From Malania oleifera (taxonomy: Eukaryota > Streptophyta > Magnoliopsida > Santalales > Ximeniaceae), in the NCBI RefSeq assembly GCF_029873635.1, contig NC_080421.1, positions 868,001-932,000 on the forward strand: a stretch of DNA of 64,000 nt. The letters are read 5' to 3'. Shown here in pieces: positions 47,629 to 54,100 of this stretch; positions within the stretch are counted from its first letter, which is position 1, and each line of letters opens with the position of its first letter. The notes below the pieces were generated by a model. That model did not search any database and had not been told where the DNA came from. It saw only the letters and a program-made list of their open reading frames with translations. The translations under genes and the position numbers were made by a program.

Positions 47629-50600
47629 TTATGCGTTCTCAATCCCAAGCTGGTTGAGAGAATCAGGGCCAACAAGGAAAATACGTCGTGGAGTTTGGAA
47701 TCGGAAAACCACTACTCCTTTATAGGCTGTTCTTGGTATACCATCCTAGAAAACAGAGGCACAGGACAAAAAAATTATTCATTTAAGATGACAAAACCAA
47801 AAAACTTGTACAACACAAATAAATCAGGGATCCTGACTACCCAAAAACATCAAGAATGCAACTTGTGTCTATAGGCATTTATTGTGGCACATACGGTTTT
47901 TTCTTCCTTTTTTTTTTCAGGAATGATTTAAAAGATGCAAATGAAGCCTGCTTCAAGATGAGGCGTGCGTAAAATGCCCTGAGACATAATCTAAAATACC
48001 AAGTTCCCAAAAGGCAAACGCATAATATAATAAAGCTTACACTTTTGCACAAGAAATGCAGATATTATTGTTTCTTGATAGAGGCTTATGCATTTTGAGT
48101 TCGTGAGTCAAACTTGGTCTTCAACTAGGGATGTATATGAGAGAAGACAAAGAAATGCTCTAATCCAAGTGAATCACTAAAACTCTTTAACCTAAACCTA
48201 TTTGAAGAATTGAACATTGCATCTTGGGTCATGAATACAATTTGAAATTGGAATTATGATCACTTATTAGCACGGCTTATTTAAATGATTTTACGCTTAT
48301 GTCTTTAGAATGATCAAATAGTAGTTTATGAATCATATTTGAATATATCTTTTTTAAAAATTTATCTGTATTTTTCCTAATTTTATTTATTGATTATTTG
48401 TTTATTTATTTATAAAATAAAATAAAATTTGCAATGGCTTAAGCCTTAACATGTTGAGGCTTAAGACGCTAACACCTCGCATTGTGCCTTGCATTGCATT
48501 GCTTTTGATAAAACTAGAAACTCATGCATAAAGAGATTTCATTTCAAATTTCCGAATAACAAGAAAGACAGAAGGAACATAATTCTCCAACAAGGGCTTT
48601 TGGACTATAATTGGAACGCAATTAGGTGCCCTTCTACAAAAAGAGTAATGTGCAACATCAAAATATAATGAACCTTAGACCATTAGTGAAAAGTAAGGTT
48701 GCCACATTTAAGGAAGAATGAAGGAAGAGGCTTACTAGTGATAATAAACAATACAATATTTAATCAAGCAGTTTATTTTGATGTAATTTAGTATCAAATA
48801 AAATGAAACATGTACTAAAGCAAGAGCTGAAATACCTTCCATTCTTTAAAAATTCCAAATTGATGTGCAACATGTTCAAAGTCTTCCTGGTCTCTATACT
48901 GAATGCGCACATCACCATCAACATTATATGCCTTCAGAACAGCATCAGTTCCATGGACAGGTCTTGCACTTCTAACAAGACCAGCAAAGTGCCTTCTATA
49001 CTTGTCCTATGATGTAGAACAAATTTACTGACCTCAAATGTACAAAATGCTTAACTTGTTTCCAGATATCAGAACAGACTATATCTCATACCTCCCTTAG
49101 GTAGCTCAAATCCATCAACTTCCAGTCAACCTTGTGAAGAAACAGCAAAAAGCAACAATTACAACAATAAGGTGTGATACAGGTAGAGTTTAAATCAGTT
49201 TATTGATCTAAAAGATAAATTGGTACACACCTGGACATCATTCAGCTTAATAGGCTCAAGATATTGTTTGAAAAACTGCCCCATACTAGAACCCTGTCAA
49301 AGAACAAAAGGACCGATGCAGCAACAACTTTAGAACCCAATAGAATGTGATGAATAAATATTACTGTTGAATCTTAAAGTTATTTCAGGTTCCCTATCAG
49401 GGAATTCGATAATGTTCAAGCTAGTCTGCACTTTGTTAACAATGCAGTACATAATGGAGGCAGTGAAATTTTAACAGGGTATTTGCAATACAGTTAACTG
49501 GCCATATGCATGAGATTAATGATCATTTCTGAAAAAGAGAAACAGCGAGTTGGAGAAATTTCAGTTTGATATACATAATTAAGTTTGTCATATCAATGAA
49601 TAGAAGTTTCAAAGAAGATGAAACTGAGTAATTGATTCATATTCACACAGAGACTGCAGAATGATGCAAATACAAGTGAATCTTGTGAAATGGTTCACAA
49701 TAAAAATAGAACAATTTATACTCGCATGATAAAGCTAGCAAGAGGAAGGTATGGTGTTGAACCAGAAGCATTTTGAGCACTGAGATAGATATACATACAT
49801 GTTCGCCAAAATTATATGTTCTGCAAACTTCTGGACGAATAAATTGCCGACCTTTGTGGTTCTCTTTCAATCTCAACCAGTCATCCCAGTAAGTGAAGTT
49901 TTGTCAAGGAAAATTCTTAAATGATACATTATGACACACACATAAGTCTGATCTACAAACTAAACTATACGAGACCAAAAGGATATGCCTTCGGCCACTT
50001 TGGTGATAACTCATCCCATATAGATCTAGACAGCATCCACCCAAGTCCAGGGAAAAAATCTGAGCGGTATAGTATATCTGCAGATTGCATTAATAATTTC
50101 TGATTAACGAGTAGATAAAACTAGTAAAATAAATTTTGATAAATGAGCCTATTGCTACATTCGCTAATGTTGGGAGGGCACTAACAATTGGAGAGAAATG
50201 ATTAATTAAAGCAAACAAGCTAAGGCCAAGAAAACAGAATTTGAGGGGCTAGAGGAAGAGCTAAAATGGAACCAGGGGACACAATTGAAACCAGGTAGGT
50301 CAAGATAAATGGCCATAAAAAAGTAGATAGGGATGGCAAACATGAGTGATGTAGCTAATACTGAAAACAATTCAAGGGTGCAGGAAAGCCAAATAGGCCA
50401 CGAATTGAAGTAAAGATCGACGATTGATAATAAAGCAAATAATATTGATCCAAATATGTCCACCATGTCTCACACAATTCGAACTTTTCCTGTGTTTTAA
50501 AATTAAATTCCATATTTTTGAAATATTGAGAGTATTTCTTCCAACTGAAAGCCATTATGCACGTTTATGATTAGCCGTATTTTTTTAATGAAGAAAGATA

Positions 50601-51162: not shown

Positions 51163-54100
51163 TCCCCACGTGCAATCTTGTAGTATGCGATCAACTCCCC
51201 TGGCCTTTCAGTATGCACAGGACCCAAATCCAAATGCTGTGATTAAACAAAGTTAGCGTTCAAGGAGCTACAACTGCTATGATCCATGATAAGTCAATTT
51301 TTAGAGAATTGAAAACAAATGACATGAAGCACCTCTGGGAAGAAAATAATCTGGCCAAATCAACTCTTTTTAAAACATGGATAAATAATTATAAGTCTGT
51401 AGTAAAGTAAACAGTTCCCAAAAATATGGAAATGAAAAAAAAAAAACTGTGATCTTTTTGGCAGTTCTCAATCATTGTCAATACATACACCAGTTAACAA
51501 AACAACTATATTTCCATTAGGCAAATATCAATACTTGGGCCGCTTTACTATTATACAAGAACTGCTAAATGCAACATCTATGGACAATCCATTTTATCTA
51601 CTTCAATAACAAACAGAAGAACATGTGTACAATGCATGCTGTATGCTTTTGAAATATAGGTGATAATTATGAGGTTATGCCTAGGCTGCCAAATACATGC
51701 AAACGAGGAAATAAAATATGGCCCCTTCAGTTGTGGAAAACATTTTTGATTTTCCAACTTTTAGTTTTCCAAAGAATTATAAAACTTTTAGTTTAATTTT
51801 TAATTTTTCGAACTCTGTATTAAAAAGAGAGAAAATAAAGAGTTTGCTTAAATGTGCAAAACAATTTTTCATTTTTTTTTTTTAGATTTCAAAATAATCA
51901 TAAAAAGACAACTTATTTTCTAATTTTCCAAAATTTACATAAGATAATACTTAGAATTATGGGTTTTGGGCTTGAATTTGGATTTGAGTGGATTTAGAAG
52001 AAATTCTATACATAATCTATACAAATTAAAGTCCAATATCTGAATTCTATGCTCCTTGTATAGAAAGTAAGGTTAGAAGTCGAAAGGTTATGTGTGCTCA
52101 TGCATATTGCAGGGCTACACAGGACCTATTATAATATAAATGTTTTGCTTGCTTCAATATTTTATACAATTCATCTATGACGTATTAATGCTCATGACTA
52201 AGCTGATTTCTATTTTATAGCTTTTATATTGCAACTCCCTCACTCCCTCCCTCCATAGCAGGGTTCTAAGAGTAGATTTTGGGACTTAAAACATGTCAAA
52301 CACAGAAAACACGTTGACCATGAAACTTGTGTTTACAACCATAAAATAGAAAATTACATGACTAATTCATGGGAAAAAAACTGCTGCTGCTATTTCAATT
52401 CCATAAAAAATAGAAAACAAAGGTTGTGTGCATGAAAAACATGTATATCTGACTGAGTTTATAGAAACAGCAGCTTTACAATCAGCTCCTACTACAAGAA
52501 TATCACTTCCACTGCAGCAGCCAGTAGCAGCTTCTGGAAGCCCATCTGGAAAACAGAAGCCCCCACAAAGGTAGCCTTCTTTGTGTGGGAGGCAACTGTT
52601 GGTAAGATTCCTAATGTAGAAAACCTGCGGAAAAGGGGAATGCCTCTTGTCAACAGGAGAGGGCGCCAGAACATGGTGGGAGAATTATGGGCATTTGCTT
52701 AAGCAAGGAAAGAAGGAAAGCTTTGACACTCGTTTCATTTTTTTGGTTTGTGTGGAGGGAAAGAAATAGAAGAGCTTTCAAAGGATCAGCTACGCTGTTA
52801 CTTGTTATCAAAGATCAGTGGATGACTAAAGGCATAGTGCCTTGTTTTTTAAAGACAAATTCTTTATTTTTTTGACACCCGACTGTGTAGGTGATTTTTT
52901 TTTACTGCTTGTACATCGGTGACAGCCTCATTGGTGCCCTTTAATGAATTTTTACTTTGCTGATAAAAAAAAAAAATTGTTCAATAAAAAACATACCATT
53001 TTATTATTAAGAAGAGATATTTGAGGACAGAACAATTCCTTCAAGAGTTTAGATATATAGTTATTCAGCCAGAAAATCATTTCTTAAAAAAATATAAACA
53101 AATGCAGCCAAATGCGCCAAGAATAGCAATGATGCTGAGATAACAGTGCCAAACTCTTTTTCTTTTTTAAATTTGAAAGTGAAGTGGGAACATACTTAAC
53201 CTGCCAGCCGAGAGTGAGAGAGAGAGCACATTTACCTAGAAATAATATAAAGTCACCCACAATGTTATAGACATGAAAAAGACTCTTCTTACTAAACCAC
53301 AGTTGAACATAATAAAAAATTCAAAGGAGGCTCCTTTGGGAGAACTTGGAGGCAGAATTCAAATTCCACTTGGTCAAATGGGGCTTGGTGAAACAGTCAA
53401 TCAGCTCAGAAGGCTTGGGTTTAAAGTCCCTCGACATCTTCGACAAAGCCCTTCTTGAAAAATGGTCGTGGAGATTCATGATTCAGAAAGATCGCATTTG
53501 GTGAAAAATCATTGCCATGAAATATGGGCTTGAGCACAATAAGTAGATCTCTCAGGCCGGCAGAGGACCACACGGCAGAATGGTGTGGAAATACACAAGG
53601 AAAGGTTGGAATGACTTTTTCTCCCTTCTAGATTTCAAGTGGGAAATGGAGATAGCATTTATTTTTGGCATGATGTGTGGAGTTATCCAAAGGCTCTCAG
53701 TGTGTCATGTCCATCTATTTACAACATGGCTTGTCATAAAGATGCCTGCGTATGTCAGCTCCTCCAAACATCAATTCAGGGGTTTTTCTGCAATATCCCC
53801 TTTCATAGAAATGTGGAAGATTGGGAACTCCGCCAGCTCACCAATCTCTAGTCCTCTTTTCAAGATTCAGTTTCAAAACACTCATGACCTTCCTGTTTGG
53901 TCCTTTGACAAGAAAGGGGTCTTCACTATCAGATCCTTTTACAGGGAACTTTTTCTCTGGGAGTCAAACAATATTCACTCCCCTTGGTCTCAATTATGGA
54001 GACGGCTGCCCCTATTAAGTTTGCCTTTTCTACGTAGGAAGCAGCTCATGGTAAGATCTTGACCCTGGACAACTTGCAAGAAGGGGGTTCTCCATTGCCA

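Follow-up and report, generated by a model that had tools for sequence, protein, structure and literature searches.

A putative AT-AC minor-class (U12-type) intron ahead of the catalytic WDD motif in the GnT I gene of Malania oleifera

Introduction

Among described plant introns, the U12-type AT-AC intron of CBP20 is close to the one treated here: the two share AT-AC termini, a TTCCTTRAY-type branch site, short length (in several species for CBP20) and the position of sole minor intron among U2 introns (PMC5932401). The CBP20 intron is conserved from liverwort to seed plants, as reported from a ten-species comparison (PMC5932401), whereas the GnT I intron is known here from one genome. In one count, U12 introns made up 0.17% of Arabidopsis introns (246), and another count gave 2069 U12 introns with an AT-AC share of 4.8% (both as quoted in PMC5932401). 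According to a database paper, the AT-AC share of U12 introns is 23% in soybean, 26% in Arabidopsis, 13% in maize and 22% in rice (PMC7367187). The original prediction of the GnT I intron had described AT-AC introns as rarer still than U12 introns in general, which is true, but the subtype is less exotic than this implied, because it accounts for 13-26% of U12 introns in those four plants. One more plant gene with such an intron is therefore no surprise. Minor introns are reported to be biased to the 5' part in 112 of 290 streptophytes (PMC10639083).

A close described gene is GnT I of tobacco, which has in common with the present gene the enzyme, many small exons and a transposon-enlarged intron, the latter being the 5.4-kb intron 11 of NtGnTI.B (PMC7873608). 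NtGnTI.A is described as having 19 exons in 12.5 kb, compared with 18 coding exons in about 55 kb here (PMC7873608), and because of this difference the exon numbering may differ by one. The intron passages of that paper do not give the intron class, and no word with 'splic-' was found in its text (PMC7873608). Among the literature matches listed, none tied a U12 intron to GnT I, CGL1 or At4g38240, a statement about those matches that makes no claim of absence from print.

Materials and Methods

The window is the whole 64-kb stretch of M. oleifera DNA that was analysed. The gene model was built by splice-aware alignment guided by the protein of CGL1, the GnT I gene of Arabidopsis, and the aligner permitted only GT-AG and ATATCC/RTATCCT-type introns. 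Alternative junctions were enumerated from 50077 to 49799, with GT/GC donors joined to AG, or AT donors to AC, AG or AA, and introns of at least 40 nt. The genome (1,494,336,490 bases) was searched with the pattern ATATCCTT-N50..80-TTCCTTRAY-N6..16-CAC, and the reversed pattern served as control. All snRNA gene matches reported are above the Rfam cut-off, and their counts are lower bounds.

Results and Discussion

Structure and identity of the GnT I gene

The modelled gene comprises 18 coding exons in about 55 kb, with 17 introns and 444 amino acids open from Met to stop; its main features are given in Table 1. The Pfam GNT-I profile (PF03071, GT13) matched the 353 joined amino acids of the 14 exons within the window with 563.4 bits (profile positions 83-434 of 434), and rabbit GnT I matched the joined catalytic-domain exons with an E value of 8.2e-88, in agreement with the original assignment of the gene to GnT I. 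The EDD and WDD motifs of GnT I have catalytic roles, and both are in place in the model when aligned with the rabbit enzyme. One N-terminal exon showed 72% identity over 29 residues with CGL1. The five initial exons proposed by the splice alignment (62857 to 56536) had no GnT I likeness and lay in part in transposon sequence; they were rejected, and the 5' exons lie beyond the window. When positions 49907-50089 were taken as one piece, the protein was in an off frame and gave 0 matches.

Table 1. Features of the M. oleifera GnT I gene, in window positions.
Feature	Position	Strand	Basis or detail
AT-AC U12-like intron in GnT I gene	49893..49986	-	94 nt, phase 2
5' splice site ATATCCTTTT	49977..49986	-	sequence and motif match
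Branch site TTCCTTGAC	49903..49911	-	branch A 49904; 11 nt to final base of intron
3' splice site CTTCAC	49893..49898	-	sequence
GnT I exon 13 (coding), upstream of AT-AC intron	49987..50077	-	ends ...KWPKA, Ala codon split GC/T
GnT I exon 14 (coding), downstream of AT-AC intron	49799..49892	-	rest of Ala, then YWDDW
GnT I coding exons 5 to 18 (catalytic domain), 14 exons, 13 introns, to stop codon	47629..55609	-	splice alignment
Four further GnT I exons upstream of window	102534-102466, 87230-87180, 86696-86609, 75145-75083		window-scale positions

A search of the genome with the GNT-I profile gave five matches, every one an exon at the GnT I locus, and a DNA search placed a 451-base GnT I region at a single site. 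No second GnT I gene or processed copy with the spliced junction was seen in the genome by the DNA search and the profile, the latter detecting 5 of the 14 known exons; the gene at this locus is the sole GNT-I gene to have been detected. In a bacterial genome collection, the only match was a short one to a Faecalicatena contig (80% identity over query residues 47-61); viral contigs gave no match, and neither result is informative. An Rfam scan of the window found nothing.

Sixteen of the 17 modelled introns are GT-AG and number 13 alone is AT-AC and U12-like. The class of the 16 is in part a product of the model, because the types permitted to the aligner were limited, though each of them kept the reading frame. 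The donors of the 12 other modelled introns inside the window have at least 3 mismatches to RTATCCTTT, and the four upstream introns have GT donors and AG acceptors.

Mobile sequence was also observed in the gene. A LINE-like element with a 566-aa open frame (57646-55949, minus strand, the same as GnT I) sits inside the fourth coding intron, of about 19.5 kb, and contains a zf-RVT domain (72.7 bits) and a partial RVT_1 (21.2 bits, below its cut-off). Within the 3.8-kb intron 55068-51237, the segment 53600-54250 (plus strand) resembles by eye the end of a non-LTR retroelement. A short reading at 54895-54875 (minus strand), HEVDFEP, is similar to HLDLGPV, with which the modelled exon at 51236 starts; the likeness may be chance.

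Anatomy of intron 13

The coordinates, AT and AC termini, donor, branch site, 11-nt spacing and 94-nt length of the original prediction were exact on the minus strand, and its U12-type AT-AC class was upheld by a donor and a branch site without mismatch at that spacing. On this strand the junctions read ...CCGAAGGC/ATATCCTTTTGG...GAATTTTCCTTGACAAAACTTCAC/TTACTGGGATGAC..., the intron begins with the donor ATATCCTT, which has 0 mismatches to RTATCCTTT, and TTCCTTGAC has 0 mismatches to TTCCTTRAY. The distance from branch A to the intron end falls within the 11-13 nt given as optimum in a review (PMC3584512). The A+U content is 0.69 in the intron vs 0.55 and 0.61 in its flanking exons, and the intron lies at 64% of the GnT I coding length. 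Joining across 49986/49893 restores KWPKAYWDDW, where the split codon is that of Ala284, and the junction aligns without gaps to KAFWDDW of rabbit GnT I.

In all probability (about 95%), intron 13 is constitutive, belongs to the minor class (U12-type, AT-AC) and is recognised by U11 and U12. In such a mechanism, U11 would pair with the donor AUAUCCUUUU and U12 with UUCCUUGAC, upon which branch A would attack the donor; the AC 11 nt downstream of branch A would serve as acceptor, and removal of the intron would restore Ala284, followed by YWDDW.

Minor-spliceosome snRNAs in the same genome

The genome search covered three of the four minor-spliceosome snRNAs (U11, U12 and U6atac, the fourth being U4atac) and gave at least two matches to U11 (75.1 and 43.1 bits), at least one to U12 (92.7 bits) and at least 13 to U6atac (best 96.8 bits). 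Five of the U6atac matches were observed clustered within 1.3 kb (G000 C9:7901033-7902261; L007-L009, L011 and one without a locus label). Stretches of CCCACATCG and TATAAATA, known as plant snRNA promoter elements, occur upstream of the best U11 and of the U12 copy, and none was present in the 100 bases upstream of the second U11.

The plant's own best U11 pairs with the intron donor at -8.4 kcal/mol, a value equalled or bettered by 14 of 300 shuffled donors, and the second U11 does so at -7.8 kcal/mol (32 of 300). The plant's U12 pairs with the branch site at -8.7 kcal/mol (11 of 300 shuffles as good). The crossed pairs were ordinary, with 143 of 300 shuffles as good for U11 with the branch site and 198 of 300 for U12 with the donor. 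Pairing of U6atac with the donor (-7.1 kcal/mol) was no better than that of shuffles for the two copies used (72 and 71 of 300).

Possible consequences for GnT I expression

If no other junction is used, it would follow that GnT I mRNA depends on the minor spliceosome. Translation into a retained intron would end after KAYPFGLV, ahead of WDD, and because of this stop an unspliced mRNA cannot give active enzyme. The intron could, compatibly with its being a constitutive minor-class intron, also act as a regulated brake, in which slow minor splicing would set the level of GnT I and hence the output of complex N-glycans. Besides the stop on retention, this idea is favoured by the shortness of the intron, since longer U12 introns were spliced better in CBP20 minigenes, with one exception (PMC5932401), and by the purine before branch A, which is G here, whereas A at this place is reported to be helpful (PMC5932401). 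However, the CBP20 results come from other introns than that of GnT I, and a database paper states that both splicing types seem fast enough for co-transcriptional removal of most introns (PMC7367187), and we regard a regulatory role as unlikely. Similarly doubtful is the wider proposal of a minor intron that occurs plant-wide just ahead of the catalytic residues and through which the synthesis of complex N-glycans responds directly to the activity of the minor spliceosome; if true, U12 splicing, in development and stress, would be linked to the Golgi glycome. The prediction is that weak U11/U12 function would leave the intron retained and may give more oligomannose N-glycans. Since minor introns show stasis in plants, we expect the U12 intron to be present in the GnT I genes of other plants. 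Its position is also expected to be present in U12 catalogues.

Alternative junctions

The enumeration yielded 136 open frame-keeping junction combinations, which were scored against rabbit GnT I. The top score (229) was that of 49986/49893. The runner-up (220) uses the same donor and ends at 49899 as a non-canonical AT-AA intron, removing 88 nt and giving KAFTYWDD, with Phe-Thr inserted before YWDD. AT-AA is described as the most frequent non-canonical end of plant minor introns (PMC10639083), but at 49899 it would leave branch A (49904) just 5 nt from the intron end, vs the optimum of 11-13 (PMC3584512), and would put two additional residues into a conserved stretch, so that its use is very improbable. 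Use of a neighbouring GT-AG (U2) intron, such as the 112-nt 49975/49864, is scarcely credible either, since this top-scoring GT/GC-AG pair, though it keeps an open frame, swaps WDDWLRLK for Pro-Phe and lowers the score from 229 to 170, and WDDW is also present in rabbit GnT I. It had been claimed that the frame is lost with GT-AG alternatives; this was too broad, as the pair 49975/49864 shows, but the conclusion drawn from it stands. All eight of the top GT/GC-AG pairs listed lose WDD.

The AT-AC intron of GnT I thus appears, from its sequence and junctions, to be real, well formed and of a known kind. The junction is also useful for annotation, because gene finders restricted to GT-AG would break or shorten GnT I at the active site.

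Frequency of the motifs in the window and the genome

Exact matches to RTATCCTTT and TTCCTTRAY on both strands of the window numbered two donors and three branch sites, which form one properly ordered and spaced pair, that of the GnT I AT-AC intron. Simulation of 200 sequences of 64 kb with a first-order Markov model produced, over both strands, a total of 3 donor-branch pairs within 200 nt. The genome-wide pattern gave 18 matches, about 0.0008 per 64 kb, vs 11 for the reversed control. Because of this ratio the motif by itself carries little weight at the genome scale, and the genome-wide count was rejected as proof of the intron. What does the work in the intron call is the exact placement of the motifs at a junction that restores a conserved protein.

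The 18 matches correspond to 17 places (L025 and L026 overlap), and 6 of the 18 share the same initial sequence and look like repeat copies. Six of the 18 loci (L017, L020, L021, L022, L023 and L030) could be joined, at one or another AC end, into an open frame of 40 residues; L021 is the GnT I intron itself. A Pfam scan of the joined frames of L017, L020, L023 and L030 gave no match. L030 (G000 C12:42917996-42918079) is a candidate AT-AC intron of 84 nt, with the joined frame DIVHLSDLSDDSGDDLDFLGPLLPQ..., which lacks a Pfam match. A further candidate AT-AC intron, L022 (G000 C5:100828049-100828163), lies in a UDP-glucuronic acid decarboxylase gene; its joined frame had one Pfam match just below the curated cut-off (26.3 vs 27 bits) and was identified by a PDB sequence of this enzyme (E 3.3e-16). 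Like the GnT I intron, L022 has a matching donor (ATATCCTTT) and branch site (TTCCTTAAT), a CAC end and a restored frame, but it is 115 nt long and its branch A lies 19 nt from the end.
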